Shown here: piece after piece, positions 2,471 to 18,569 of the stretch
Layout of the letters: every line of letters starts with the position of its first letter
Position numbering within the stretch: the stretch's first letter is position 1
NCBI GenBank assembly: GCA_902826455.1
Contig: CADEEV010000040.1
Span: 1-41,097, forward strand
Reading direction: 5' to 3'
Length of the DNA: 41,097 nucleotides
DNA from: an uncultured Acidobacteriota bacterium
GTDB taxonomy: Bacteria > Acidobacteriota > Vicinamibacteria > Fen-336
Program-made: the position numbers and the translations under genes
The notes under the pieces: model-generated
The model's database searches: none
The model's input: only the letters and a program-made list of their open reading frames with translations
Told to the model about the DNA's origin: nothing

Positions 2471-3663
2471 CGCTTCGGCTTCGGCCGGCGTCCGACGAGC
2501 TTCCAGAACTGGGTCTCGTCGAGCAGCGTGATGCGGTAGCCCTTCTCGCGGAGCCGCTTGATCTCCATGAGCTTGCGGCCCGCGTCGCGGCCGGCGAGCT
2601 GCAGCGGGTTGGGCTTGCCCCGCACGACGACCGTGGTCTGGATCGACGGGGCGCCGTGGACGGTCGCGCCGGCCTTGCGCGCGGCCTTCATGGCGTCGGC
2701 GCGCGGCACGCTCAGGATCCCCGTGAAGGCGACGTGGGCTCCCTTCAGCGTCTTCAAGGCGCCGGTGCGGAGCACCGCCGGGCGCTTGCGCAGGGCCTCG
2801 ATGAGCTCGTCCGCCGCCTCGTAGCGCTTGCGGCGCTCGCCGATGCAGCGCACCAGGATCTCCTTCAGGTGATCGCTGCAGCCGAGATGGCGGATCTCGC
2901 CGGTCCTCACGCGCGTGCGCGCGTCGCCGCGCACCAGCATGCCGAGGAGCTGGCCGACCTGGTAGACGTCGTCGCGGGCCTGCCACTTGGGGATGCCGCC
3001 GGCCACGATGTCGCTCGGCGCGTTGAAGGGGTTCAGGGTGCGGGCGCTGGCGCCGCGCTTGTCGCTCTGCGGCCGCACCAGCCCGAAGTCGCCGAGCTTG
3101 AGCCGGCCGCCCTCGCAGACGAAGACGTTGAGCGGCGTCAGGTCGCGGTGGAGCTGCTGGCCGCGGTGGAGCTTGCCGAGCACCTCGAGAACGCCCGCGA
3201 TTTCGCGGCGGGCCGTCAGCTCCGGCAGGGCCTTGCCGCTGCGGTGCAGGAACGCGCGCAGGTCGCCGTGGCGGGCGTACTCGATGGCGAGGCAGTAGAG
3301 CGGCCGGCCGTCGGGCTGCAGCAGGACGAACGTGTCGTACACGCGGATCGCGCGGGGATGATCGTCCAGCACCTGCCCGAAGTACGCCTCCCGGAGCCAG
3401 CCGTCGATCCGGACGCTCGCCTTGATGCACAGGAGTGGCGGCATGCGCGTCGAACGGGTGACGCGCCGCGCCAGGTAGACCTGGCCGAAGCCGCCCTCGC
3501 CGAGCAGGCGCTCGACGCGGTAGCGCACGCGGGACTCCGGGCTCTCGACGACCTGGTCCTCGGTCAGGAGGCGTGGCCCGCGACCGGGACGGGAGCGGGC
3601 GGGGCCGGTGCGCGTCGGCAGGTGCGAGAGCTCGGTCGAAGGGATCGTCGAGGGCGCGGACAT
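2467..3663 (-). CDS. Ser/Thr protein kinase with C-terminal BRCT domain
   Basis: A 398-aa cytosolic protein with no membrane segment. Residues ~45-295 are a Hanks-type kinase: glycine loop GEGGFG (55-60), ATP-anchoring Lys81, catalytic HRD (172-174) with Asn179, and DFG (192-194). The activation segment is short and lacks a recognisable APE triad; GGIPKWQARDDVY follows where it should be. Residues ~306-393 fit a BRCT domain: LKGAHVAFTG, a conserved Arg321, a TTVVV strand, then an Ala/Gly helix and the closing TQFWKLV. BRCT domains bind phosphopeptides or DNA ends, so a role in DNA-damage or phospho-dependent signalling is possible but inferred. ATG start; divergent from the hydrolase at 3727 with 63 bp between. 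Kinase call is firm, BRCT call good. Confidence 0.88.
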   Translation of the reverse strand: MSAPSTIPSTELSHLPTRTGPARSRPGRGPRLLTEDQVVESPESRVRYRVERLLGEGGFGQVYLARRVTRSTRMPPLLCIKASVRIDGWLREAYFGQVLDDHPRAIRVYDTFVLLQPDGRPLYCLAIEYARHGDLRAFLHRSGKALPELTARREIAGVLEVLGKLHRGQQLHRDLTPLNVFVCEGGRLKLGDFGLVRPQSDKRGASARTLNPFNAPSDIVAGGIPKWQARDDVYQVGQLLGMLVRGDARTRVRTGEIRHLGCSDHLKEILVRCIGERRKRYEAADELIEALRKRPAVLRTGALKTLKGAHVAFTGILSVPRADAMKAARKAGATVHGAPSIQTTVVVRGKPNPLQLAGRDAGRKLMEIKRLREKGYRITLLDETQFWKLVGRRPKPKR

Positions 3664-3675
3664 CGGTACGTGCGC

Positions 3676-3704
3676 ATTGAATCAACTTGCCGGCACCACA
3701 GCAA
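3676..3704 (-). promoter_or_regulatory. Candidate promoter of the kinase-BRCT gene
   Basis: Read on the minus strand: -35 TTGCTG (3704-3699), 17-base spacer, -10 TTCAAT (3681-3676). Transcription would start a few bases before the ATG at 3663, leaving almost no leader. It physically overlaps the divergent promoter on the plus strand, so the two could compete. Pattern match only. Confidence 0.35.
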
Positions 3705-3717
3705 CCCTCGCTAGAAT
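3687..3717 (+). promoter_or_regulatory. Candidate promoter of the alpha/beta hydrolase gene
   Basis: -10 TAGAAT at 3712-3717, preceded by TTGCCG at 3687-3692 (19-base spacer, longer than ideal). The ATG at 3727 lies only 9 bases after the -10, with no Shine-Dalgarno, which suggests a leaderless transcript. The same TAGAAT-like -10 recurs elsewhere in the window. Confidence 0.4.
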
Positions 3718-3726
3718 GGTCGGCCC

Positions 3727-4668
3727 ATGAAGCGGCTCGTCGCACGCGCCCTCGGCGCGCTCCTCGTCCTCGCCCTCGTCACCGGTGTCGGTCTCTCCGC
3801 GCTCGGAGCGCTGCAGAGGCCGGACACGACCCTGCCGCCGGGCGTGCCGGGCGTCCACGTCGTGGTCGACGGCGTTCCGATCCGCTACGTGCAGCAGGGC
3901 CAGGGTCCGGACGTGCTGCTGCTCCACGGCTCGCCGGGCTCCATCGAGGACTGGGAGCCCGTGCTCGCGCGCCTCGCCGAGCGCTTCCGCGTGACCGCGA
4001 TCGACCGGCCGGGCCACGGCTACAGCGGGGGAGTCGAGGTCCCGCACACGCCGCAGGCCAACGCGGCCGTGGCGCTCGGCGTGATCCGGGCCTTGAGGCT
4101 CCAGGACGTCGTGGTGGTCGGCCATTCGTTCGGCGGCATGACCGCCGTGGCCCTGGCGCTCGGCGACCCCGCAGAGGTCCGCGCGATCGTCGTGGTGGCG
4201 TCGCGCGCGTACCCGCCGGCGCCCGTCGAGCCGTTGTATCGCCTGCTGGCGCTGCCGTGGCTCGGGCCCGGGCTCGCCGCGGCCCTGGCCCCGACCGTGG
4301 GCGAGGCGAAGATCGACGCGGGCGTGCGCGCGGCGTTCGGTCCCAACTCCGGCGCCATCCCACCGGGCTTCGTGGCCGAGCGCACGCGCCTGTGGACGCG
4401 GCCGACCGTCACGACCACGCTGTCCCGAGAGCGCGTCGAGCTCGAGCCGGCCTTGCGCGCGCTGGCCCCGCACTACCGCGAGATCCGCAAGCCCGTGTAC
4501 CTCGTGTACGGCGCCGACGACGCGCGGGCGGGCAGCGACGGCCCGCGCCTGGCCCGGGACATCCGGGGCGCTACCCTCCTGTCGCTCCCCGACACCGGTC
4601 ACTACGTCCAGTACGCGCGGCCGGAGGCGCTGCTCGAGGTGATCGGGCACGCCGTGTTCATGCCCTAG
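3727..4668 (+). CDS. Membrane-anchored alpha/beta hydrolase
   Basis: 313-aa alpha/beta-hydrolase fold protein. An N-terminal hydrophobic stretch (residues ~5-29) without a clear cleavage site suggests a signal anchor with the enzyme in the periplasm. The oxyanion segment is LLLHGSPGS (64-72), the nucleophile elbow is VGHSFGG with Ser134, the likely acid is Asp264 or Asp265 in YGADD, and the catalytic His is His292 in DTGHYVQY. A cap domain (~150-235) separates the halves. Substrate cannot be deduced; esterases, epoxide hydrolases and haloalkane dehalogenases share this fold, but the Ser nucleophile excludes the last two. ATG start with no Shine-Dalgarno, probably leaderless. The lipoprotein genes follow on the same strand after 62 bases. 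Confidence 0.88.
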   Translation: MKRLVARALGALLVLALVTGVGLSALGALQRPDTTLPPGVPGVHVVVDGVPIRYVQQGQGPDVLLLHGSPGSIEDWEPVLARLAERFRVTAIDRPGHGYSGGVEVPHTPQANAAVALGVIRALRLQDVVVVGHSFGGMTAVALALGDPAEVRAIVVVASRAYPPAPVEPLYRLLALPWLGPGLAAALAPTVGEAKIDAGVRAAFGPNSGAIPPGFVAERTRLWTRPTVTTTLSRERVELEPALRALAPHYREIRKPVYLVYGADDARAGSDGPRLARDIRGATLLSLPDTGHYVQYARPEALLEVIGHAVFMP

Positions 4669-4679
4669 CTGTCGGATTC

Positions 4680-4728
4680 CCAACCTCGATTCCGATCTCC
4701 CCAACGACGGGGGAGTTCTGGAGGTTGG
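4680..4728 (+). promoter_or_regulatory. Stem-loop covering the Shine-Dalgarno of the first lipoprotein gene
   Basis: A perfect 8-bp outer stem pairs CCAACCTC (4680-4687) with GAGGTTGG (4721-4728). Inside it, CTCCCC (4697-4702) can pair with GGGGAG (4710-4715). The right outer arm contains four of the five bases of the GGAGG (4720-4724) that serves the TTG start at 4731. The structure could hide the ribosome site, or it could be a weak terminator for the upstream hydrolase; there is no T-tract. Confidence 0.4.
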
Positions 4729-4730
4729 AC

Positions 4731-5495
4731 TTGAGGATTTCAGGCTGTATCCGGACGTTCGTGGCGGGCCTCGCCGTGGCGGCGGCGGCCTGCGGGGGGT
4801 CGGGCGGCGCCGATCCGCAGCTGCCGACCGCGCCGATCGGGCCTTCGGGCGCCCGCTCGGACCTGGACTTCGCCATGGAGTCGAGCAACGGCCTCGCGCC
4901 GGCCGGCTTCAAGATGGTGTCCCACGTCGATCCCAAGGCGGGTGAGGACGGCGTGATCCGCGAGGGCTCGCCGGTCACGGTGACGTTCGACCTGTGCGAC
5001 TCGACGGTCGACGACGGCGGCCATCCGTGGTTCCTGTTCGACTTCGACTTCAACCACGTCCCGGACGTCATCGGCAAGACCGAGTCCTGCCGCCAGACCC
5101 ACACGTATCGGATCCCGGTGGACGCGACGCGCGACGCCATCCAAGGTGCCAACTTCTGCTTCACGAATGCGGACCCGTCGAAGGGGCTCAAGGGGACGTA
5201 CTTTTCCTGCCGTTCCGTGCGGATCGGCCTGCCGGACTTCAAGGGCGCGGCCGCGGGGTGCTACTTCGCCAATCCCTTCTGGTTCTCCTGGCCGGGGGGC
5301 ACGGGCCCGACGAACGAGGTCGTCCTCTTCGACAACCCCGCCTGCCAGCCTCCGGGCGAGGCTCTCGAGGACCAGTCCTACGTCGTCGCTCCGACAGCGG
5401 TCGACGCGCGGCAGCTCTGTGGCCAGGTGGTCGTGGAGACGCCGTTCCACATCGGCGACGGAACAATCTTCCAGTGCGGTCCGGAGGCGGAGTGA
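4731..5495 (+). CDS. Cys-rich PKD-like lipoprotein, paralogue 1
   Basis: 254-aa predicted lipoprotein of a family repeated five times in the window; function unknown. I chose the TTG at 4731 because GGAGG (4720-4724) sits 6 bases upstream and the frame then opens with a signal sequence ending in the lipobox VAAAAC. After a Pro/Ser linker comes the family signature: MESSNGLAPAGFK, DPKAGEDGVIREGSPVTV, FDLCDST, FLFDFDFN, SCRQTHTYRIP, NFCFTN and TYFSCR. The WDF-like strand followed by HTY resembles a PKD/Ig-like fold braced by conserved cysteines (inference). The C-terminal part (CYF...SWPGGTGP...VVAPTAVDARQLCG...FQC) is a second conserved module. The next gene starts inside its stop codon (TGATG). 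Confidence 0.82.
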   Translation: MRISGCIRTFVAGLAVAAAACGGSGGADPQLPTAPIGPSGARSDLDFAMESSNGLAPAGFKMVSHVDPKAGEDGVIREGSPVTVTFDLCDSTVDDGGHPWFLFDFDFNHVPDVIGKTESCRQTHTYRIPVDATRDAIQGANFCFTNADPSKGLKGTYFSCRSVRIGLPDFKGAAAGCYFANPFWFSWPGGTGPTNEVVLFDNPACQPPGEALEDQSYVVAPTAVDARQLCGQVVVETPFHIGDGTIFQCGPEAE

Positions 5496-6241
5496 TGAAA
5501 TCCCTGATCGTTCGTGTCGCCGTGCTCGTCACCGTCCTCGGCATCGCCGCCTGCGGCGGCTACGACCGCAAGGTGCCGTCGTCCCCGACGGCGCCGTCGA
5601 TCCCGGACGGCGGATTGCCCGGGGACATCGTGATGGAGTCGAGCCAAGGACTCGCGCCGGCGGGCTTCCAGCTGGTGTCCCACACCAACCCGAAGGCCGG
5701 CGAGGACGGAGTGATCCGCGCCGAGTCGCCCATCACGGTCGACTTCGACCTGTGCGGCTCGACCGTCAACGAGGGCGGCCGTCCCTGGTTCCTCTTCGAC
5801 TTCGACTTCGATCACGTCCCGGACGTGATCGGAAGGAGCGAGAGCTGCCACCAGACCCACACCTACCGCATCCCGCGCGACGCCGCGCAGGACCTGGTCG
5901 TGGGCGCCAACTTCTGCTTCGCCAACGCCGACCCGTCGGCTCACCGGCCGGGGACGTACTTCTCCTGCCGATCGGTCAAGATCGCGCTTCCGCACTTCCC
6001 GGACGCGGCCGCGGGCTGTTACGAGATCGACGGCGAGGACGCGTCGTTCTTCTGGCCGGGCGGCAAGGGTCCGATCGACCCCCCTCTCTTCAGCGATGCG
6101 ACGTGCACGCTCGCCGCCATGGACGATCTCGGCCCCCTGGTGTTCGCGCCCAGCGCGAGCGAGGCGAAGCGCCAGTGCGGCGGCGCCGACTTCGTCCTCG
6201 AGATCCATCGAAACTTCTTCCTCTGCGATCCGGTGGTCTAG
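5495..6241 (+). CDS. Cys-rich PKD-like lipoprotein, paralogue 2
   Basis: 248-aa predicted lipoprotein, nearest to paralogue 1. Signal peptide MKSLIVRVAVLVTVLGIAAC ends in the lipobox GIAAC. The same core follows: VMESSQGLAPAGFQ, PKAGEDGVIRAESPITV, FDLCGST, FLFDFDFDHVPDVIG, SCHQTHTYRIP, NFCFAN, TYFSCRSV. The C-terminal module keeps CYE, FFWPGGKGP, VFAPSASEAKRQCGG and a final FFLC. The ATG shares one base with the stop of paralogue 1 (TGATG), so translation is probably coupled; a GTG three bases earlier is also in frame. No enzymatic motif is visible. Outer-membrane or periplasmic location is inferred from the lipobox. Confidence 0.85.
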   Translation: MKSLIVRVAVLVTVLGIAACGGYDRKVPSSPTAPSIPDGGLPGDIVMESSQGLAPAGFQLVSHTNPKAGEDGVIRAESPITVDFDLCGSTVNEGGRPWFLFDFDFDHVPDVIGRSESCHQTHTYRIPRDAAQDLVVGANFCFANADPSAHRPGTYFSCRSVKIALPHFPDAAAGCYEIDGEDASFFWPGGKGPIDPPLFSDATCTLAAMDDLGPLVFAPSASEAKRQCGGADFVLEIHRNFFLCDPVV

Positions 6242-7090: not shown

Positions 7091-7199
7091 GCATACCTCC
7101 AGGTGACGCTAACGTCGCCGGCCCCCTCCTTGTTCCCCCGTTGTTCCCGGGTCGGAAGTTGTGCCACCATCGGCCACTCGCTTTTCAGGAGGTCTCCCG

Positions 7200-8021
7200 A
7201 TGAAGCAGACGGGGTGGCGCTATTGGGGTGTCCTTTCGGTCGGCGTCGTGCTGGCGTCGTGCAGCGGTTCCGGGGGCTCGCCGCAGAGCCCGGCCGCGCC
7301 CGCGCCGGTGACACAGGGCGCGGACCGAGGGATCGTGATGGAGTCGAGCCGGGGCCTGGCGCCGGAAGGGTTCAAGCTCGCGATGAAGGTCGACCCGAAG
7401 CCGGGCCTGGACGGGATCATCCGTGAGGGATCGCCGGTGACGGTCGAGGTGGATCTGTGCGGCTCGACGCCCGATGCGGGCAAGACGCTGCACTTCCTGT
7501 ACGACTGGGACTTCAACGACCTCGCGGAGGTCGTCGGCACGGGCGACGCGTGCGTGCAGAAGCACACCTACCGCGTCCCGAAGGACGCGACGAAGGACCT
7601 GGTGCTCGAGTCGAACGTGTGCGTCACGAACGGCGATCCCGGCGTGCATGACGGCAGCACGTACTTCTCGTGCCGCGTGGTGCGCGTGGCCCTTCCCAAG
7701 CCCGCGAGCTGCAGCTCCGGGCTGGCCGAGGGCTGTCAGGCCTTCAGCTCCGTCATCGAGGGCGGCATCGCGCTCTCGGTCGAGTGGCCGGGCGGCAGCG
7801 GACCCTACGGGCTCGTGCTCGGCTACGAGGACTCGTCCTGCGGAGGCACTCCCCTCAACGGAACGGACGTGGCTGTCGCCTGCTCGCTCGCGGAGGCCCA
7901 GGCTCTCTGCGAGAACGAGGACGCGGAGCTCTACGGGACCTTCCCGGGCGGCCAGGGGTTGTACTTCTGTTTCGGCCTGGGCGATGCCAGGGCGGCTGTC
8001 CCGACGCACTGGGGACGCTGA
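7200..8021 (+). CDS. Cys-rich PKD-like lipoprotein, paralogue 3
   Basis: 273-aa predicted lipoprotein; ATG chosen because AGGAGG (7187-7192) lies 7 bases upstream. The signal peptide ends in the lipobox VLASC. The core is better conserved toward PKD than in paralogues 1-2: FLYDWDFNDLAEVVGTGDAC, then QKHTYRVPKDATKD, NVCVTNGDPG and TYFSCRVVRVALP. The C-terminal module has VEWPGGSGPYG, ACSLAEAQALCE and GLYFCFG, with extra cysteines, and a short tail. Its closest relative is paralogue 4, with which it shares long stretches of near-identical DNA, indicating a recent tandem duplication. Function unknown. Confidence 0.85.
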   Translation: MKQTGWRYWGVLSVGVVLASCSGSGGSPQSPAAPAPVTQGADRGIVMESSRGLAPEGFKLAMKVDPKPGLDGIIREGSPVTVEVDLCGSTPDAGKTLHFLYDWDFNDLAEVVGTGDACVQKHTYRVPKDATKDLVLESNVCVTNGDPGVHDGSTYFSCRVVRVALPKPASCSSGLAEGCQAFSSVIEGGIALSVEWPGGSGPYGLVLGYEDSSCGGTPLNGTDVAVACSLAEAQALCENEDAELYGTFPGGQGLYFCFGLGDARAAVPTHWGR

Positions 8022-8088: not shown

Positions 8089-8871
8089 ATGATGCAGCGG
8101 TGGGTCGGGTGGCGCGCGATCGCGCTCGGTGTGGTGCTCGCCTCGTGCGGCGGCAACGGTGGGGCGCCGCAGAGCCCGGTGGCGCCGGCCCCGGTGGTCG
8201 TGGGCGCCGGAGCGGGCTACGTCATGGCCTCGAGCCAGGGCCTGGCCCCCGAGGGCTTCAAGCTCGCGATGAAGCTCGACCCGAAACCGGGTGAGGACGG
8301 GATCATCCGCGCAGGCGAGCCGGTCACGGTCGAGGTCGACCTCTGCGGCTCGACCGCGGACGACGGCAAGACCCTTCACTACCTGTTCGACTGGGACTTC
8401 AACGACCTCGCCGACGTCGCGGGCACCGGCGACGACTGCGTCCAGAAGCACACGTATCGGGCGCCCAAGGACGCGACGAAGGACGTCGTGCTGGAATCGA
8501 ACGTGTGCGTCACGAACGGCGATCCCGGCGTCCACAACGGCAGCACCTACTTCTCCTGCCGGACGATCCGTGTCGCGCTGCAGCCGCGGCCCCAGGGCGT
8601 CTGTGCCGGGGCCTTCGCCGTGCCGGAGGGTTGCTACGCCTATCAAGGCGGCACGTTCGGCTGGGAAGGCGGCGCCGGTCCGTACGACGCGGTGGCGGTC
8701 TTCGAGGGCGTCGGCGACTGCAGCGGGCAGGCCGAGATCGAGTCGGGCCCCTACGCGGCCGCGTGCAGCGAGGCCGAAGCCGCCCAGCTGTGCGGCGGCC
8801 CGGCGAACTACATCGGCATCAACTTCGGCGGCGACGTGGGCCTCTATTTCTGCGGACAGCCGCCGGTCTAG
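8089..8871 (+). CDS. Cys-rich PKD-like lipoprotein, paralogue 4
   Basis: 260-aa predicted lipoprotein. Two adjacent ATGs (8089 and 8092) follow AGGGGG at 8078-8083. The signal peptide ends VLASC. Core signatures: MASSQGLAPEGFKLAMKLD, GEDGIIRAGEPVTVEVDLC, YLFDWDFNDLADVAGTGDD, QKHTYRAPKDATKD, NVCVTNGDPGVHNGSTYFSC. The C-terminal module has CYAYQGG, WEGGAGPYD, ACSEAEAAQLCGG and GLYFCG. It is the sister of paralogue 3. The stop codon lies in a 14-bp palindrome shared with the end of the convergent helicase gene. No known enzymatic function is visible. Confidence 0.85.
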   Translation: MMQRWVGWRAIALGVVLASCGGNGGAPQSPVAPAPVVVGAGAGYVMASSQGLAPEGFKLAMKLDPKPGEDGIIRAGEPVTVEVDLCGSTADDGKTLHYLFDWDFNDLADVAGTGDDCVQKHTYRAPKDATKDVVLESNVCVTNGDPGVHNGSTYFSCRTIRVALQPRPQGVCAGAFAVPEGCYAYQGGTFGWEGGAGPYDAVAVFEGVGDCSGQAEIESGPYAAACSEAEAAQLCGGPANYIGINFGGDVGLYFCGQPPV

Positions 8872-8881: not shown

Positions 8882-11430
8882 GCGAGCGGGCCGAGGCGGT
8901 CGAGCCGCAGCATCGCGTCGCTCGTGGCCCGGGACGCGAGCAGATCGACAGTGAACTGCGCGACCCAGTCGTTGTCGCCCTCGGCGTCGATCAGCATCTG
9001 CTCGACACGCCACGTTCCCGGCGCGTCGGGCGGAGCCGGCTCCACGTGGGTGTGGCGGATGTTGCGGGCCTCGGGGTCGAGGCGGATGCCGGCCGGGTGC
9101 AGCGCCTTGTGGGCCTCGCGCGCGGTTTTGAGCCGGGCCGGCGTCCAGGCCGCACCGTCGGCGTCGCTGGCCGAATCGAACAGGGCCAGCGCCGCCTCGT
9201 CGTCGCCGATCGACCAGGCCCGCAGGAACGCGAACACGCGCGTCCGGACCATGGCCGTGAAGGCCTTGGTGTCCCGGGTGACGTCCTCGGGTAGCTCCGG
9301 CCGCGCCGGTCGGAGCTCCGGGCCCGCGAGCGGGACGTAGCTCGGGTCCTTCATCCGTTCCCATTCCTCGAGCAGGCTCGAGTCCACCTGCCGCAGCATG
9401 TCGCGCAGGTAGAGCTCGGTCTCGAGCACGGCGTCGCTCTTGAAGCCGTCGGGCACGTTCTGGCTGAGGACCTTGTACGTGCTGTTGAGGTGGCGGAGCA
9501 GCAGGCCTTCGCTGCGCTCGAGGTCGTACTCCTGCACGTAGTCGGAGAACGAACGGAAGCCCTCGAACATCTCGCGGGCGATCGACTTGGGCCGGATCGC
9601 CTCCTCGCCGACCCAGGGATGGCGGTCGGCGAAGGCGTTGAACGTGTTGTAGACGAAGTCGCGCAGCGGCTTGGGATGCTCCATCTTCTCGAGCTCCGCC
9701 ATGCGCTGGTCGTACTCGACGCCCTCGGACTTCATCTCGGCGACCTTGCGGTCCTTCAGCTTGTCGAGCTGGCGGCGCAGGATCGCCTCGGGGTTCTCCA
9801 GGATGCTCTCGACCAGCGTCAGCACGTCGAGGGCGTGGCTCTCGGCCTCGGGGTCGAGCAGCGGCAGCGTCTCGAGCAGGTAGAGCGAGAGCGCGTGGTT
9901 CATCGAGAAGTCTTCCTGGAGGTCGACGTTGACCCGGACCCGGGAGCCTTCGGCGCTGCGGGGCACGATCTCGACGATGCCGCGGGCCACGAGGGAGCGG
10001 AACAGCTGCCAGGCGCGCTTGAAGTGGCCCGCCTTCGCGTGCTCCGTCTCGTGGCTGTCGTGGATCAGGTGCTGCATCGCGCGGCAGCCGTCGGCCTTGC
10101 GCGACAGGACGTTCAGCAGCATGCCGTGGCTCACGTCGAAGCGCGAGGTGAGGCGCTCGGGCGGCGCCGTCATGAGGCGCTTGAACGTGTTGAGGTCCCA
10201 GTTGGCAAAGTTGCGCTCGGGGGGCTTGCGCTTCACGACCTTCTTGCCCTCCTTCGCCTTCTCGTCGAGCTTCAGGTTCTCGATGAAGTGCTCGGGGGCC
10301 TGGGCCACCACGTAGCCCTGGTCGTCGAAGCCCTTGCGGCCGGCCCGTCCCGAGATCTGGTGGAAGTCGCGGGCGGAGAGGATCGCGGTCTTCTGGCCGT
10401 CGAACTTGCAGAGCCGGCTGAACAGCACCGTGCGGATCGGCACGTTGATGCCGACGCCCAGCGTGTCGGTGCCGCAGATGACCTTGAGCAGGCCCTTCTG
10501 GGCGAGCTGCTCCACGAGCACGCGGTACTTCGGCAGCAGCCCCGCGTGGTGCACGCCGATGCCCTGCTTCAGCCACTTGCGCAAGGTCGGGCCGTACGGG
10601 CTCGAGAAGCGGAAGCCCTCGATCGCCTGGGCCACGGCGTTCTTCTCCTCGCGCGTCGCGAGGTTGAGGCTCGTGAAGTCCTGGGCGCTGTCCGCGGCGT
10701 CCTTCTGGGTGAAGCTCACGACGTAGACCGGCGCCTTGCCGTCGCCGACGAGGGTCTCGAGCATCTGGGCGATCGGGATCTGCGAGTAGGCGAAGTCGAG
10801 GGGCACCGGGCGGTCCGTGGCCTTCACGGTCGCGGTGGGGAGGCCGTTGAGCCGCGTCAGGCCCTCCTCGAAGTACGCGACGTCGCCGAGGGTCGCCGAC
10901 ATGAGGAGGAAGCGGCTGCGCGTGAGCGTCAGCAGCGGCACCTGCCAGGCGACGCCGCGGTCGCGGTCGGCGTACCAGTGGAACTCGTCCATGACCACGT
11001 CGTCGACGTCGGCGTCGGCTCCGTCGCGCAGGGCCATGTTCGCGAGCACCTCGGCCGTGCAGCAGAGGATCGGCGCGTCGTGGTTCACGGTCGCGTCGCC
11101 CGTCGAGAGCCCCACGTTCTCCGGGCCGAACTCGCGGCACAGGGCCATCCACTTCTCGTTGACGAGGGCCTTGATCGGGCAGGTGTAGACCGAGCGGCGG
11201 CGCTGCGCCATCGAGGCGAAGTGCAGCGCCGAGGCCACGAGGGACTTGCCCGAGCCCGTCGGGGTGTTGAGGATGACGTTCTTGTCCTCGAACAGCTCGA
11301 GGATCGCCTCCTCCTGCGCGGCGTAGAGCTCGAGGCCGCGGCTCGTGACGTAGTCGAGGAAGCCGCCCAGCAGCGCGTCGCTCCCGGTCTCGCCCCCGGG
11401 CGGGAGTCTCTGGAGGAGCGGACCGCTCAG
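8878..11430 (-). CDS. DExH-box helicase of the DUF3516 type
   Basis: Superfamily 2 (Ski2/HelY-like) helicase, ~850 aa. No ATG, GTG or TTG precedes the Walker A motif in this frame: the first is the GTG at 11238, which would remove NTPTGSGKS. Coding similarity runs back to near the end of the FHA-EAL gene, so I set the start at CTG 11430; this is uncertain. From there: Q-motif-like YAAQEEAI (36-43), Walker A (57-63), DEFH (148-151), SAT (178-180), and [10 protein letters not shown] in motif VI. The long C-terminal part, with its [10 protein letters not shown]-like end segment ([13 protein letters not shown]), is typical of the DUF3516 helicases. Presumably ATP-dependent RNA or DNA unwinding. 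It begins 4 bases after the FHA-EAL stop, so translation may be coupled. Family confident, start not. Confidence 0.85.
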
Positions 11431-11434
11431 GAGC

Positions 11435-12532
11435 CTAGAGCTCGGTGGCCGGAACGGGGCGGTGGAAGAAGTAGCCCTGGGCGAGCTCGAAGCCGAGCTG
11501 CGCGCAGACCTTCGCGTCGGCCTCGGTCTCGATGCCCTCGGCGATGCCCCGGGCGCCGAGCTCGCGGGCCAGCGTCACGAGGGAGCGGACCATGCGCTGC
11601 TTCGACTCGGGGGCCTCGGCGATGCCGCTCACGAAGCGGCTGTCGAACTTCAGGTACTCGGGCGGCACCTCGGCGAGCTCGAGGAGGCGGGCCTGGCCGG
11701 CGCCGAAGTCGTCGTAGGCGAGGCTGATGTTGAGCTTCTTGAGCTGCGAGCGGAACTCGCGGATGCCGGCCGAGTCCACGATCGTCGACTCGTGGACCTC
11801 GATCGCGAGCTGGGCGTCGGGGGCGATCTCGCGCAGGTCCGTGAGGGACTCGACCAGGCTCGGCAGGGCCAGCTCCCGCGGATGGGTGTTGAGGAACAGG
11901 CTGCCGATCGAGGGGTGCACGCTCGCGATCTCGACGGCGCGCCGGCGGAAGATCTGGCTGAGCAGCGGCGCCTGGCCGATGCTGTCGGCGATATGGAGCA
12001 GCGCCTGGGGCCCCACGGGGAGCAGCGGGTGCCGGCCCCGGCCAAGGGCCTCGTAGGCGATCGCCTCGCCCGTGGCCATGAGCGAGATGGCCTGGAAGTG
12101 CATGGTCACGAGCTGATCGCGGATCAGCTCGTCCATCTCCCGGGTGCCCTTCACGAACTGCTCCGGGAGCGAGACCTCGCGCATCACCGCGGTCGTCTTG
12201 CGGTGGGACGAGAGCGCCTCTTCGAGACGGAACTCGAAGTCCGCGAAGTGGATGATGTCGCCGTCGCGCAGCGCCTCGTCCGTGATGCGCCGCCGGTTCA
12301 CGTAGGTGCCGTTGGTGCTCGACAGGTCCCGGACGTGGAGCTCGCCGTCCATCTCGTAGAACTCGGCGTGCTCGGTCGAGACCGACGTGCTGGGCAGCGT
12401 GAGTTCGAGGCCCGAGCGACGTCCCACCCGGAACGGGAGCTGGTTGATCGAGACGTTCCAGACGCGGCTGCCGCCGTCGATCAGGGAGCGCAGCACCCAG
12501 GGCGTCCGGACGATGTTGATGGGTGTCGTCAC
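11435..12532 (-). CDS. FHA-EAL protein: phosphothreonine-binding domain fused to c-di-GMP phosphodiesterase
   Basis: About 365 aa. FHA domain at ~15-110 with VGRRSG (36-41), STEH (52-55) and STNGTYVN (72-79), the phosphothreonine-binding residues. EAL domain at ~135-360 with EAL (161-163), Asn215, Glu245, DDFGAG (274-279), Lys295, AEGIET (331-336) and Gln352, so catalysis looks intact; the usual R after EAL is one place off in EALGRGR. It should degrade c-di-GMP in the cytosol, gated by a phosphorylated partner. I used GTG 12532; TTG 12541 is equally in frame and neither has a good Shine-Dalgarno. A CKSCG just upstream, still after the kinase stop, hints that an even earlier non-standard start is possible. 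The gene directly follows a Ser/Thr kinase, the obvious source of the FHA ligand. Confidence 0.9.
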
Positions 12533-12579
12533 GCCCTGCAACGGTACGGAAGCGCCGCACGACTTGCAAGCCGCGGAGG

Positions 12580-13862
<1,283 letters not shown>

Positions 13863-13866
<4 letters not shown>

Positions 13867-14942
13867 CGGTTCTGGAGCAGGGCGAGGGCCTGACGCCGCA
13901 GCGAGTCGGGATGGTTCGCCGCGCGCAGCGCTTCCTCGAGCGTGATGCTGCCCTGCTCGATGTGGCGGAGTAGCGAGCCGTCGAGGCTCTGGGAGCCGAG
14001 GCTGTCGCGCGCCGAGGACTGCAGCATCGCGTCGACCTGGTACGTCTTGTTCTCGCGGATCAGGTTCGCCACCGCGTGATTCTGCAGCAGGATCTCGAGG
14101 GCGGCGATGCGCCCCTCGCCGCCGGTGCGCAGGCAGAGGTGCTGCGCGATCACGGCCTTCAACACGACCGAGAGCAGGCCGCGAACCTCCTCGCGGGCGT
14201 CCTCGGGAATCATGTCGACGATCCGGTCGACGGCCTTCGCCGCCGAGTTCGTGTGCAGGGTGCCGAAGACCAGCAGGCCCGTCTCCGCGGCCGAGAGCGC
14301 CAGCTGCATGGTCTCGAGGTCGCGCATCTCGCCGACCACGACCACCTGGGGCGCCTCGCGCAGGGCCGCCCGCAGGCCCGAGGCGAAGCTCTCGGTGTGG
14401 CGCCCGACCTCGCGCTGGGTGACGACGCTCTGGGCCGGCTGGTGCACGTACTCGATCGGGTCCTCGATCGTGATGATGTGCCGCTTCGACGTGCGGTTGA
14501 TCTCCTGGAGGATCGCGGCGAGCGTCGTGGTCTTGCCCGAGCCCGTGGGGCCGGTGATGAGGACGAGGCCCTGGCCGAGCCGGGTGAGGCGCGAGACCGC
14601 CGGCGGGAAGGCCAGGTCGCGCAGCGACGGGATGCGGGCCGGGATGAAGCGCAGCACGATGCCGAGGCCGTCGTTCTGGGCGAGGGCGCTCGCGCGGAAG
14701 CGCCCGACGCCCTCGAGGGCGTACATGAAGTCGACCTGGCGCTCGGTCTCGAGGGTGTCGCGCTGCTCGGGCGTGAGGATCTCGAGCACGAAGCGGCGCG
14801 CTTCCGCGTCGGACAGGGTCCGGAAGGGGAGCCGGATCAGCTGGCCGTTGTGGCGGATCGTCGGCACCTTGCCGGCGTGGAGGTGCAGGTCGCTCGCCTG
14901 TTGATCGGCCACCACCCGCAGGAACGAGTCGATGCGGGCCAT
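13863..14942 (-). CDS. pilT: Type IV pilus retraction ATPase PilT
   Basis: 359 aa, the usual PilT length. N-terminal PAS-like domain with ASDLHLHAG; Walker A GPTGSGKT (131-138); Asp box IEDPIEY; Walker B VVVVGEMRD with catalytic Glu205; His box GTLHTNS; and the AIRNLIRE-like C-terminal motif as AVANLIREN. It is a hexameric cytoplasmic ATPase that powers pilus depolymerisation and twitching. The segment before Walker B reads REAPQ instead of the common REDPD. The ATG follows the upstream HEAT-PilT stop after a single base (TGA-G-ATG), and its own stop overlaps the kinase start. It could equally be called PilU by some schemes. Confidence 0.95.
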
Positions 14943-14943
14943 C

Positions 14944-17697
14944 TCAGGCCGGCGCCCCGCCGCCCAGGCGGCTCTCGAAGTCCTTCTTGCTGACGGCCTT
15001 CATGTAGGCGTCCTCGGCCGAGATCTTGCCCTCGTCGCACAGCCGCGCGAGCTCCGAGTCCATGAGCTGCATGCCCGCCTCGCGCGACGTCGCCATGATC
15101 GAGGGGATCTGGAACGTCTTGCCCTTGCGGATCAGGTTCGAGATCGCGTCGTTGTTCAGCATCACCTCGACGGCCAGGCAGCGCCCAGGCGCGTCGCGGC
15201 GCGGGAGCAGGTACTGGCAGATCACGGCGTTCAGGCTGCCCGCGATCATCGTGCGGACCTGGTCGTGCTGGCCCGGAGGGAAGGCGTTGATGAGGCGGTC
15301 GACCGTGAGCGCCGCCGACGAGGTGTGGATCGTCCCGAAGACGAGGTGGCCGGTCTCGGCGGCCGTCACGGCGAAGGCGATCGTCGGCAGGTCGCGCATC
15401 TCGCCGATCAGGATGACGTCGGGGTCCTGGCGCAGCGTCCCGCGAAGGGCCTGGTCGAGCTCGCCGGTGTGGGTGTGGATCTCGCGCTGGTTGACGATGC
15501 TGAGGTCGCGGCGGTGCACGACCTCGATCGGGTCCTCGAAGGTCACGATGTGGCGGGCCGAGGTGCGGTTGATCTCGTTGATGATGGCGGCCAGCGTCGT
15601 CGACTTGCCGGAGCCGGTCGGGCCGCCCACCAGCACCAGGCCGTTCTTGAGATCGGCGAGGCCCTGCACCACGGGCGGCACGCCGAGGTCCTCGATGCGC
15701 GGGATCGTGCCCCGGACGATCCGGAACACGGCGCCCAGGCCGCCGAGCTGCTCGAAGACGTTCACGCGGAAGCGCAGGTCGTGCTCCGGGATCACGTACG
15801 AGAAGTCCGCCTCGCGGCCGGCGCGTACCCCGCGCACCTGCTGCGGCGAGAGGTGGCGCAGCAGCATGCCCGCCACGTCCTCGGCCCGCAGCACGTCCTT
15901 CGCGAGCACCGCGACGGAGCCGTAGCGGGTGACGTAGGGCTGGCGGCCCGGGGCCAGGATCAGGTCGTCGCAGTTGCGCTGCGACACCGCCACCAGCAGC
16001 TTGTCGAGGAACGAGAGCGTGTCGACGGCCGGGCCGGCCGGAGCGTCGAGGCGGGCCTGGAGCTCCTGGAGGACGTCGCGCGCCAGGGCGCGCACGGTGG
16101 ACGACGGGTCCTTGAGGGATGCGCGGATCGTGTCGGCGTGGCGCGTCGAGCCGAAGGCCTTGAGGCAGCGCAGCGCCGCGACCTGCACGTCCTCGTCTCC
16201 GGACGCGAGCTGCGAGACGACGCTCTCCTCGGCCTCGAGAGCGCTCGGCCCGAGCACCTCGAGGCCCTGCAGGCAGGCGATGCGCAGCTCGGCCTCGCGG
16301 CTCATGATGTCGGCCAGGTAGGGCACCGAGCGCGGATCGCGCTGGGCCGCGATCGCGTCCACCGCGCGCTCGCGCACCCACCAGTCCTCGTCGTTGAGGG
16401 CCGTGACCAGGAGCGCCCCCAGGGCGTCGGGCACGTGGAGGCGCGTGATCATGTCGACCGCGAACTGCCGCATCACGGGCGCCGGGTCCTGCAGGTAGGG
16501 CAGCACGTGGGCGAGCAGGGCCTCGCCCGCCAGCTCGATCAGCACGTCGGCCAGGCGCTCGCGCACCCACCAGTCCTCGTCGCGCAGGCAGCCGAGGAGT
16601 TTGGGCCAGAGCTCTCCATGGGGATCGCGCACCGTCTGGGCGAGCTCGACGGCGAGGCGCCGGATGTCGGCGTCCTTGCTGCGGAGCAGCCACACCACGG
16701 TGCGGGCCAGGTCGAGCTTGCCGGCGGCGCTGAGGCGCGCGAGGGCCTCGGCGGCCTTGAGACGCACCGTGATCTGGGCGTGGCCGAGGGTCTCGGCGAG
16801 CGGCCGCAGGACGTCGGGCGTGCCGATGGACTCGAGGGCCTCGATGGCCGCGAAGCGCACGAGCTGGGGACCCTCGCGCAGCTTCTCCTGCAGCATGTCG
16901 ACCGCGCGCTCGCTCGCGAACTTGCTCAGTCCCGAGACGGCCGCCGAGACGAGGCCGGGACGGGACGAGGCGAACAGCGGGGCGGCGCTCTCGAAGTACT
17001 CGTCCTCGCTTGCGATCGACGCCAGGGTCGCGACGGCGTGGCCGGCCACCGCCTCGGACGAGTCCCTCACGGCGGACGCGACGGCGCGCGCCGCCGCGGG
17101 GGCGTCCCGCGCCATGCAGCGGGCCGAGGCGAGCTGGTCGATCGTGAAGATCCTGTCCTCAGGCGTGCCGAAGGCGAGGGCGGCTCCGAGGGCCGCCACG
17201 GCGCGGTGCTCGCCGATCGCCACCAGGACCTCGACGATCTCCCGCCGGCTCTCGAGGCCGGGCTCGCGCACCATCTCCGAGAGCAGCTCGAAAGCGGTCT
17301 TGGCGCCGACCTCGCTCAGGACGCTGGCCGCCGTCGCGCGCAGGTTCGGGTCCGGGCTGCGCATGAGCGCGCACAGGGCCGGGTGGTCGAGGATGCTGTT
17401 CATGCGCGGCAGCAGCAGGGCGATCGCGGCACGCAGGGCGGGATCGGCGCCGCGCAGCGCCGAGACGAAGTGGGGGAACAGGCGCTTGTCGGGGAAGCGC
17501 TCGGCCAGGCGCTCGAAGGCGTGGACGCGCGCGTCGTGGCCGGGCTGCGACGGCGCCCCGGAGACCGTCAGCATCTGCAGGAGACGCAGGATGTCGGCGC
17601 TCTCCAGCTCCGAGGCGGCCAGGGCGAAGGCGTCGATCTCCGCGACGGAGGCCCACGGGCTGGCCTTGAAGATTCTGAGGGTCTCGGCAGCGTTCAT
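14944..17697 (-). CDS. HEAT-repeat/PilT fusion ATPase
   Basis: 917 aa. Residues ~1-545 are tandem HEAT-like helical repeats, including two copies of DEDWWVRER (373-381 and 436-444) 63 residues apart. Residues ~560-910 are a complete PilT-family ATPase: CDDLIL segment, Walker A GPTGSGKS (692-699), EDPIE (721-725), Walker B with Glu766, His box GTIHTSS, and NLIRKGK. It probably acts on pilus retraction together with the adjacent PilT, with the HEAT array as docking or regulatory platform (inference). The C-terminus is extended past a normal PilT by a short charged tail. First gene of the minus-strand run; ATG with no clear Shine-Dalgarno but a good candidate promoter upstream. Confidence 0.93.
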   Translation of the reverse strand: MNAAETLRIFKASPWASVAEIDAFALAASELESADILRLLQMLTVSGAPSQPGHDARVHAFERLAERFPDKRLFPHFVSALRGADPALRAAIALLLPRMNSILDHPALCALMRSPDPNLRATAASVLSEVGAKTAFELLSEMVREPGLESRREIVEVLVAIGEHRAVAALGAALAFGTPEDRIFTIDQLASARCMARDAPAAARAVASAVRDSSEAVAGHAVATLASIASEDEYFESAAPLFASSRPGLVSAAVSGLSKFASERAVDMLQEKLREGPQLVRFAAIEALESIGTPDVLRPLAETLGHAQITVRLKAAEALARLSAAGKLDLARTVVWLLRSKDADIRRLAVELAQTVRDPHGELWPKLLGCLRDEDWWVRERLADVLIELAGEALLAHVLPYLQDPAPVMRQFAVDMITRLHVPDALGALLVTALNDEDWWVRERAVDAIAAQRDPRSVPYLADIMSREAELRIACLQGLEVLGPSALEAEESVVSQLASGDEDVQVAALRCLKAFGSTRHADTIRASLKDPSSTVRALARDVLQELQARLDAPAGPAVDTLSFLDKLLVAVSQRNCDDLILAPGRQPYVTRYGSVAVLAKDVLRAEDVAGMLLRHLSPQQVRGVRAGREADFSYVIPEHDLRFRVNVFEQLGGLGAVFRIVRGTIPRIEDLGVPPVVQGLADLKNGLVLVGGPTGSGKSTTLAAIINEINRTSARHIVTFEDPIEVVHRRDLSIVNQREIHTHTGELDQALRGTLRQDPDVILIGEMRDLPTIAFAVTAAETGHLVFGTIHTSSAALTVDRLINAFPPGQHDQVRTMIAGSLNAVICQYLLPRRDAPGRCLAVEVMLNNDAISNLIRKGKTFQIPSIMATSREAGMQLMDSELARLCDEGKISAEDAYMKAVSKKDFESRLGGGAPA

Positions 17698-17736
17698 GTG
17701 GATGTCCGCGGGAAGGCTTGGATCGCGGACCGGCCG

Positions 17737-17765
17737 ACTATGTCACGTCGCCCGGACCTCTACAA
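17737..17765 (-). promoter_or_regulatory. Candidate promoter of the HEAT-PilT/pilT/kinase/FHA-EAL operon
   Basis: Read on the minus strand: -35 TTGTAG (17765-17760), exactly 17 bases, -10 CATAGT (17742-17737). It implies a leader of about 30 bases before the ATG at 17697. Pattern-based; no activator site recognised. Confidence 0.45.
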
Positions 17766-17783
17766 CGCGCGGAGGAGTGCGGT

Positions 17784-17789
17784 TAGACT
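17784..17789 (+). promoter_or_regulatory. Candidate -10 box of the PilZ gene
   Basis: TAGACT lies 10 bases before the ATG at 17800, in the same geometry as TAGAAT before the hydrolase at 3727, and no Shine-Dalgarno is at a usable distance. This suggests a leaderless PilZ message. No convincing -35. Confidence 0.35.
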
Positions 17790-17799
17790 CGCGCGCGAG

Positions 17800-18114
17800 A
17801 TGCGGAGCGAGCGCAGGGCGGCGCAGCGCGTGGCCTTCGGGTGCGAGGTCGAGTGCGAGGGTCCGCAGCCCGACCCGATCCGTCCCCAGATGCGCGACCT
17901 GAGCGCGACGGGCGCCTTCATCCAGTCCGCGACTCCGGTGGCGCTGGGCACGCGCCTCGCGCTGCGCTTCCAGCTCCCGGGCGGGGACGTGATGCTCGCC
18001 GCCGAGGTCGCCCGCACCACGCAGGACGGCGTCGGCGTGCGTTTCGTGGAGCTCTCCGAGCTCGATCGTCGGCTCATCGCCGACGCGATCGCGAGGGCAG
18101 GAGAGATGTCATGA
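17800..18114 (+). CDS. PilZ-domain protein (c-di-GMP receptor)
   Basis: 104-aa single-domain PilZ protein. The c-di-GMP-binding motifs are present: R-x3-R as RRAAQR near the N-terminus and the D/N-x-S-x-x-G motif as DLSATG. The rest is the beta-barrel (RLALRFQLPGG, VARTTQDGVGVRF). It would report cellular c-di-GMP to pilus or surface functions. I used ATG 17800, which puts the ERR...R motif at the N-terminus as usual; an in-frame ATG at 17740 would add 20 residues but has no ribosome site and overlaps the opposing promoter. It is divergent from the HEAT-PilT operon, whose FHA-EAL protein degrades c-di-GMP. Its stop overlaps the next gene's start (ATGA). Confidence 0.88.
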   Translation: MRSERRAAQRVAFGCEVECEGPQPDPIRPQMRDLSATGAFIQSATPVALGTRLALRFQLPGGDVMLAAEVARTTQDGVGVRFVELSELDRRLIADAIARAGEMS

Positions 18115-18569
18115 CCGGAGTCCTGCTGGCGTTGCTCCTGGCCGCCGCACCGGCGCCCCTCGCCGGGACCTACGCGCTCGCCGCGGCCGACGATCTCAGG
18201 ACCGACGGCACGCGGGTGCCGGCCTACGGGCCGAGCCCGCAGGGGCTCCTGGTGCTGTTCCCCGACGGTCGCTACGCGCTCCAGATCTACCGCTCCGACC
18301 GCAAGCCGTTCGCGTCCGCGAGCAAGAAGCAGGGAACGCCGGCCGAGTACGAGGCGGCGTCCCTGGGCATGAGCGCGCACTTCGGCCGCTACGTCGTGGA
18401 CGAGGCCGCCCACACGATCACGTTCGAGATCGAGGCGGCGAGCTTTCCGAACTGGAACGGCGCGAAGCAGACGCGGCCGTACGAGCTGAAGGACGGCGAG
18501 CTCAGCTATCGCGTGCCGCCGGCGCCGGACGGCACCGTGCCCTTGTCGGTCTGGAAGCGCGTTCCCTAG
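18111..18569 (+). CDS. Secreted lipocalin-like protein
   Basis: 152 aa with a short N-terminal signal (hydrophobic residues 3-15). The body fits the lipocalin-like (Lipocalin_5) family: LAGTYAL at the start, GPSPQGLLVLFPDGRYALQIY, a central helix-rich segment, FGRYVVDEAAHTITFEIE, SFPNW and QTRPYELKDGELSYRVP. Such proteins are small beta-barrels, some binding hydrophobic ligands; role here unknown. The ATG overlaps the PilZ stop by 4 bases (ATGA), with GGAGAG just upstream, so the two are an operon. Its TAG shares the CTAG with the stop of the convergent DNA polymerase gene. Confidence 0.8.
   Translation: MTGVLLALLLAAAPAPLAGTYALAAADDLRTDGTRVPAYGPSPQGLLVLFPDGRYALQIYRSDRKPFASASKKQGTPAEYEAASLGMSAHFGRYVVDEAAHTITFEIEAASFPNWNGAKQTRPYELKDGELSYRVPPAPDGTVPLSVWKRVP

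Follow-up and report, generated by a model that had tools for sequence, protein, structure and literature searches.

A HEAT repeat array fused to a PilT-type ATPase, with a diverged second PilT and a kinase, in a candidate accessory type IVa pilus motor

We analyzed a 41,097-nucleotide (nt) stretch of DNA from an uncultured Acidobacteriota bacterium (Vicinamibacteria, Fen-336; contig CADEEV010000040.1 of assembly GCA_902826455.1), referred to here as the window. Its minus strand carries a gene, HEAT-PilT, whose product joins an N-terminal array of HEAT repeats to a complete PilT domain. Genes for a second PilT (PilT2) and a Ser/Thr kinase follow directly (Table 1). A reading of the DNA made without database searches (the sequence-only reading) had placed about 545 residues of HEAT repeats before a complete PilT, and the exact coordinates and domain scores bear this out. 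A plus-strand gene at 14944-17697 was rejected, the long frame there being the complement of the minus-strand gene.

The PilT domain of HEAT-PilT matches the PilT/PilU family model TIGR01420 with 393.7 bits, above the curated cut-off of 319.1, and residues 564-906 cover model positions 2-343 of 343. PilT2 likewise scores above the cut-off over the whole model, and by score both proteins belong to the family. Residues 563-912 of the HEAT-PilT model superimpose on PilT4 from Geobacter metallireducens (6ojy) with a Z score of 44.0 and a root-mean-square deviation of 2.2 over 349 residues. Residues 1-550 were folded alone with AlphaFold2 (AF2), giving an entirely helical model with a predicted local distance difference test score (pLDDT) of 94.0 and a predicted template modeling score (pTM) of 0.80. 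The 50 matches listed for this model in the Protein Data Bank (PDB) are HEAT/ARM-type solenoids and designed repeat proteins, including alphaRep, PP2A scaffold A, karyopherins, CAND1 and SF3b. By its Pfam score and its predicted HEAT/ARM solenoid fold, this region is a HEAT repeat array, and the fold is of the type that had been read from the sequence.

Table 1. Features of the HEAT-PilT locus in the window
Feature	Position	Strand	Evidence and remarks
HEAT-PilT gene	14944..17697	-	ATG at 17697, stop 14944-14946, 917 amino acids (aa); N-terminal HEAT array and complete PilT
HEAT array, residues 1-550	16048..17697	-	PF13646 1.9e-45, seven stretches; AF2 pLDDT 94.0; PDB HEAT/ARM matches
First DEDWWVRER, residues 373-381	16555..16581	-	Conserved
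Second DEDWWVRER, residues 436-444	16366..16392	-	Conserved core D-x-D-W-W-x-R/K-E
PilT domain, residues 564-906	14980..16008	-	TIGR01420 and 6ojy matches; canonical catalytic motifs present
PilT2 (second PilT, 359 aa)	13863..14942	-	Starts 1 nt after HEAT-PilT stop; TIGR01420 414.7 bits; lacks first His-box His (Leu223) and R-x-D-P Asp (Ala197)
Ser/Thr kinase, 428 aa (kinase residues 164-412)	12580..13866	-	PF00069 1.4e-50; start overlaps PilT2 stop by 4 nt
FHA-EAL protein	11435..12583	-	PF00498 5.1e-16, PF00563 5.1e-42; approximate start, open frame continues upstream inside kinase gene
PilZ-domain protein, 104 aa from chosen ATG	17800..18114	+	PF07238 2.3e-16; divergent from HEAT-PilT, 102 nt between

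The gene order is widely conserved. We searched named genomes with the patterns LRDEDWW and DxDWWVRE and compared the window with the best 80 of the 398 related loci. HEAT and PilT are encoded in one frame at 78 of the 81 loci; L116 ends at a contig edge, and L069 and L122 are frame-broken. The start of PilT2 falls between -30 and +60 nt from the HEAT-PilT stop at 58 of the 74 loci where the distance is measurable. Other spacings mostly come from over-long frames in high-GC DNA or from broken PilT2 frames, and wider gaps are present in L059 and L097. A kinase of the operon type is encoded directly downstream at 58 of the 81 loci, and 15 loci end before it could be seen. L103 is rearranged, with PilT2 and the kinase upstream, and its kinase scores like the other operon kinases. 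When all other frames longer than 100 aa were clustered, no further family was found in more than nine loci, and the sole cluster of 69 loci is the kinase.

The carriers are labeled mostly as Myxococcota, 'Deltaproteobacteria' and Acidobacteriota (Vicinamibacteria), and additionally as candidate division CSSED10-310 and a few others. HEAT-PilT and PilT2 are present in several phyla, and the fusion is not peculiar to the window genome. A protein search of 60 relatives identified full-length orthologues in six other genomes of the same family and order, one with two copies. The eight aligned sequences (the window and these seven, which coincide with seven of the named Acidobacteriota loci of the 80-locus set) include two truncated at contig ends and one interrupted by a frame break, and identity to the window protein is 45-55%. 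A profile of the HEAT array (E <= 1e-40; at most seven candidates scored per genome, at most four in Acidobacteriota) matched 18 of 195 genomes in the phylum of an Archangium-labeled carrier and 18 of 188 in the phylum of a Polyangiaceae-labeled carrier. It matched 1 of 297 Acidobacteriota genomes, that of the window, in a sample that did not include the other carriers of its family or order. In a quick tree, the Acidobacteriota HEAT-PilTs are placed among myxobacterial ones (supports 87-94), tentatively as horizontal transfer would give. L084 (Phycisphaeraceae), L072 and L091 (Phycisphaeraceae or Proteobacteria labels) sit beside Myxococcota in this tree, and their labels may be binning errors.

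PilT2 differs from the PilT domain of HEAT-PilT at two diagnostic positions. Of 78 aligned PilT2 rows, five (L060, L063, L073, L074 and L093) were dropped, their match being the PilT domain of HEAT-PilT itself, leaving 73 real ones; no match of sufficient length was obtained in L096, L100 and L116. The Asp in the R-x-D-P motif, present in 80 of 80 HEAT-PilTs, is Ser or Ala in all 73 PilT2 proteins. The first His of the His box, equally constant in HEAT-PilT (80/80), is Val, Ile, Thr, Ser or Leu in all 73. Lacking this His, which characterizes the PilT/PilU family, PilT2 stays a member by score, as a diverged branch. The Walker A Lys, the E-D-P of the Asp box and the G-E of Walker B are found in all 80 HEAT-PilT and all 78 PilT2 rows, five of the latter really being HEAT-PilT. 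With the same five rows included, the second, catalytic His, which contacts the gamma-phosphate, is kept in 78 of 78 PilT2 rows; HEAT-PilT has it in 79 of 80, with one Asn. Because the gamma-phosphate His, the Walker A Lys and the Walker B Glu are kept, PilT2 should still hydrolyze ATP. In G. metallireducens PilT, according to the accessible part of the structural report, the HIS box (T221-H230) is located in packing-unit (subunit) interfaces, and H230 is its only residue that contacts ATP (PMC6858323).

The two proteins also belong to different paralogue groups. We placed 125 PilT domains in a tree. One large group in it is separate from the PilT that accompanies PilB (canonical PilT), from a PilU-like row and from fused forms, and it has two sides. 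The A side comprises 50 rows, HEAT-PilT and its kin, not all of which have HEAT; the other 43 rows, on the B side, are PilT2 and its kin. All 27 sampled HEAT-PilTs are located on the A side and all 27 PilT2 proteins from the same loci on the B side. The tree was made by a quick method from 27 of the 81 family loci and further domains, and the added regions were hand-picked from TIGR01420 matches. Other tandem PilT pairs consist of one A and one B, save three cases discussed below. In a second set of rows, some of them copies of one gene, the first His is present in none of 17 B rows and in all 65 others (56 by pattern, 9 by eye). Across 61 loci, distances between PilT domains of HEAT-PilT correlate with those between PilT2 proteins (r 0.88; the largest of 1000 permutations gave 0.20). 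For the HEAT and PilT parts of the same protein, r is 0.89.

Single proteins of 739-813 aa with two tandem PilT domains are encoded at L174:1444-3663, L166:187-2628 and L181:1734-3959. Their N-terminal PilT has Ser for the R-x-D-P Asp and A-L-T-G for A-E-T-G, and their C-terminal PilT is canonical, an independent case of paired, unequal PilTs. We considered these fusions as a 'Rosetta stone' for A and B and rejected this, both domains lying in the canonical-PilT half of the tree. They are an analogy only, because their domains fall outside the A and B groups.

The sequence-only reading had also pointed to two nine-residue DEDWWVRER copies, 63 residues apart, as a repeated acidic-aromatic surface. 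The copies are indeed found at residues 373 and 436. No identical nine-residue pair arose in 2000 shuffles of the HEAT-PilT protein (expected 4e-5 pairs). HEAT repeats are mutually homologous, and conservation is therefore a better test than shuffling. We examined an alignment of the window and 66 of 72 usable loci (A3); a further alignment, A4, contains 47 loci besides the window. Motif 1 hardly varies, and motif 2 keeps its core D-x-D-W-W-x-R/K-E with a variable last Arg. W377, R379, E380, D436, W439 and E443 are invariant in all 67 sequences, W376, R381 and D438 are kept in 66 and W440 in 64. The exact DEDWWVRER is present at motif 2 in only 4 of the 67, so the nine-letter identity of both copies is peculiar to few members. 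The mean column entropy is 1.05 at residues 361-390 and 1.37 at 421-450, compared to 1.5-1.7 alongside and 1.9-2.6 in the rest of the array. Median column entropies are 2.09 for HEAT and 1.29 for PilT; the conservation of residues 361-390 is close to that of the PilT domain. Because the main loci were fetched with patterns from the same motif, we repeated the test on 39 sequences found by profile and not by motif. The motif 1 core is present in 37 and the motif 2 core in 34 of these, one miss being truncated, and the surface is conserved in this set as well.

A simpler explanation is that the HEAT array is a stabilizing or incidental extension, its Asp-Trp-Trp (DWW) motif an ordinary HEAT turn (D..VR..A), and the protein one more PilT paralogue. 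The motif residues, 373-381 and 436-444, do sit at the usual HEAT turn and helix start (helices 376-403 and 439-451 in the AF2 model). Asp, Val and Arg are also the commonest letters there in 131 control turn motifs, which were taken from 18 other HEAT frames of relatives (out of 23 loci); some of these frames may not be genes. However, Trp-Trp before Val-Arg is found in none of the 131 controls, where a single Trp is located two before Val in 18 and just before Val in 1. The six invariant residues, and a patch about as conserved as the ATPase domain when most of the array is not, also argue against an incidental extension, which we consider very improbable.

More distant HEAT-PilTs, identified through their PilT domain, carry D-x-D-W-W-x-R too. 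L183, L191 and L192, which score 102-133 bits against the HEAT profile, contain one D-x-D-W-W-L-R each, and the motif is present once in L190 and twice in L185. Distant members keep the motif, and therefore at least one copy of the tryptophan motif marks HEAT-PilT widely. L183:3455-5974, L191:1599-4205 and L192:1307-4231 form another, distant class of HEAT-PilT, and a B-type PilT comes after each of them. In L190 (CSSED10-310; 2968-5871 and 1910-2995), the HEAT-PilT/PilT pair is diverged. Neither protein has the usual Walker B Gly-Glu, S-D and S-E standing in its place, and the HEAT-PilT gave no match to the standard Walker A pattern. Directly after this pair, the product of L190:149-1888 combines DUF4388 with a receiver and an HD-type domain.

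The kinase of the window has the Gly loop, VALK, HRDIKPAN and DFG, and a weak TPR-like region before the kinase domain. Among 56 strong kinase matches in relatives, H-x-D-[ILV]-K-x-x-N is present in 53 and DFG in all.

HEAT-PilT is inherited with a second, altered motor and in most cases with a kinase, which points to a kinase-controlled motor made of two parts. We propose, with moderate confidence, a two-subunit, scaffold-bearing accessory type IVa pilus retraction motor that is regulated by its own kinase. HEAT-PilT would be subunit A, an ATPase with canonical retraction-motor residues. Its HEAT arm would present the conserved acidic/tryptophan patch, at about residues 330-450, to dock a partner, which may be the pilus base, the adjacent PilT, the kinase or another component. 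PilT2 would be subunit B, a diverged partner with its catalytic residues kept and its His-box region altered. A and B would cooperate as mixed or stacked rings, forming an accessory retraction motor of the type IVa pilus in addition to its normal PilT. Through phosphorylation, the Ser/Thr kinase encoded downstream would set the activity or the docking of A and B. We infer the A-B partnership, the pilus as target, retraction as output, control by the kinase and, in the window genome, an input from cyclic di-GMP (c-di-GMP).

Several observations weigh against this model. In the whole-chain AF2 model of HEAT-PilT (alignment of 67 sequences), the pLDDT of 90.7 indicates reliable individual domains, whereas the pTM of 0.55 leaves their relative placement undefined. 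The deep branches of the PilT tree are supported at 83-93 only. Both members of the tandem pair L182 are on the A side. L171/L193 and L196 are not clean A-B pairs either, an A-side member being joined by a PilU-like one in the former and a B member by an unplaced long branch in the latter. The correlation between A and B distances is probably explained in large part by shared history in one operon. The kinase is not universal. A recognizable operon kinase is lacking in 4 of the 63 loci with room for it (L120, L124, L126 and L127), and no kinase lies within reach in L124, L126 and L127. L120 and L127 retain a stretch like the kinase N-terminus without a recognized kinase domain, and the third gene of L126 encodes a REC-GAF-PAS-GGDEF protein. 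The upstream kinases of L102, L112, L113 and L120 reach 246-273 bits, a level also seen for unrelated kinases in other flanks. In addition, when the Gly loop and the Lys of the kinase were sought with crude patterns, only 22 and 33 of the 56 relatives matched, so the activity of all operon kinases is only putative. Two further points concern the pilus: only 1 of the 81 loci is near canonical pilB/pilT within the fetched flanks, and 13 of 49 carrier genomes, whose completeness is not given, have no PilB over the cut-off.

These last two points would be expected if the target of the pair, under kinase control, were not a type IVa pilus but, for example, a secretion system or a different type IV filament. 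In L115 a further PilB/GspE-like ATPase is encoded 4 kb upstream of the operon, and the window genome contains several PilB/GspE-like genes, which fit the same explanation. However, HEAT-PilT and PilT2 both pass the curated type IVa PilT/PilU cut-off. The PilB equivalog is present over its cut-off in 36 of the 49 carrier genomes, that of the window included, and in 0 of 14 controls. The operon of L058 is 2 kb from pilB and pilT, in a region where PilC, PilS, PilR and PilA were named by eye. On another contig, the window genome (5.26 Mb) encodes a canonical pilB-pilT pair, and in all it has at least six PilT-family matches over the TIGR01420 cut-off. We therefore regard a target other than the type IVa pilus as improbable.

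How A and B would be arranged is a separate question. In one version of our proposal, A and B are obligate subunits of a mixed hexamer, in which canonical and altered interfaces alternate as a built-in asymmetry, and the cognate kinase gates the ring via the HEAT arm, an arrangement kept in at least three phyla. We hold this version only tentatively. The available sections of PMC6762196 indicate that the genetics of PilT and PilU argues against mixed hexamers. Because of this, we also weigh a PilT/PilU-like arrangement without mixing, in which a HEAT-PilT ring sits on the platform with a PilT2 ring beneath, or the reverse, and the HEAT arms serve as tethers for the rings or for the base. In the same sections, PilU works only through PilT, the simplest model of the authors is a separate hexamer beneath PilT, and pilU of Vibrio cholerae is located directly downstream of pilT, like PilT2 relative to HEAT-PilT. 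PilU (9n32) has Ala for the R-x-D-P Asp, the same kind of change as in PilT2. However, PilT2 does not appear to be PilU by the tests made, which bear on its identity and not on mixing. It appears to group elsewhere, and it alone has lost the first His-box His. The C-terminal AIRNLIRE motif, which PilU lacks according to the same source (PMC6762196), is kept in part in PilT2, with Ile in 75 and Arg in 78 of 78 rows, five of these being A rows. The PilU-like row, the second PilT of L193/L171 with PilU as best PDB match, lies across a deep branch from PilT2 (support 93), on a long branch in a tree without a PilU of known function. We hold unmixed stacked rings, too, as no more than a tentative possibility. 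The sequence-only reading had suggested a regulatory or heterohexameric motor. The adjacent PilT2, its sister paralogue group, the altered His box and the coupling to a kinase lend this indirect support, and the mixed hexamer is the part argued against in the analogous PilT-PilU case.

Other genes surround the operon in the window. The FHA-EAL protein contains EAL-type motifs. FHA domains read phosphothreonine, and EAL is a c-di-GMP phosphodiesterase domain. In the window genome, the FHA-EAL and PilZ neighbors would join phosphorylation to c-di-GMP at the motor; this link, perhaps present, rests on family knowledge and gene order. FHA-EAL as part of a conserved operon core was rejected: it is seen only in the window, L051 and L073, and appears to be a local addition. 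L049 and L050 instead carry an EAL gene immediately upstream. A PilZ neighbor was seen in the window only, by a single-sequence search that could miss a distant PilZ. A lipocalin-like gene (18111-18569, plus strand) overlaps the PilZ stop, and because of this overlap the two may form one operon. A scan for sigma-70-like promoters and terminators from 11200 to 18200 returned 0 and 0 sites and is uninformative. Elsewhere in the window, two adjoining plus-strand genes (7161-8021 and 8089-8871) have translations alike over most of their length and lipoprotein-like starts, apparently a tandem duplication as judged by eye. The gene directly upstream of HEAT-PilT in L102 (L102:7015-9708) combines an HSP70 domain and a protein kinase in one product.

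The reason that several PilT paralogues persist in many bacteria is an open question in the field, as is whether they can share one ring; the pair studied in the literature consulted here is PilT-PilU. In the present case the pairing is kept by gene order in distant bacteria, PilT2 is set apart by two clean diagnostic changes, and most of the operons include a kinase. With two proteins and one kinase, one could test whether the subunits co-assemble, what the first His-box His does and whether phosphorylation controls retraction.

All parts of the system come from known families, and the combination, the B-subunit signature and the kinase coupling appear to be new. In the open-licence literature (titles and starts of abstracts; most subscription papers are not covered), we found no description of a HEAT-PilT fusion or of a kinase-PilT operon. 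MasABK of Myxococcus xanthus is a three-gene operon that ends in a protein kinase and is linked to type IV pili (PMC3546991). In the accessible text of that paper, MasA is described as a membrane protein of 505 aa, MasB as a lipoprotein, and neither as HEAT or PilT. We rejected MasABK as a counterpart, HEAT-PilT and PilT here taking the places of MasA and MasB. In PilB-PilZ-FimX and MshE, as far as the sources available to us describe them, c-di-GMP proteins act on pilus ATPases, and here PilZ and FHA-EAL genes flank the operon. However, those complexes concern PilB-type extension ATPases, whereas the neighbor here is of the PilT type and the link is by gene order alone. Canonical PilT, encoded beside pilB (C26 in the window genome; L058), has the same fold and the same catalytic motifs as the HEAT-PilT pair. 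It has no HEAT array and falls in a separate tree group, and in the window genome the HEAT-PilT pair is additional to it. The closest parallel is with PilT and PilU of Pseudomonas aeruginosa and V. cholerae, also two PilT-family proteins, one canonical and one with Ala or Ser for the R-x-D-P Asp. Unlike PilT2, PilU (9n32) keeps the first His-box His, and of the two systems only the one described here has a HEAT array on the canonical partner and, usually, a kinase gene.

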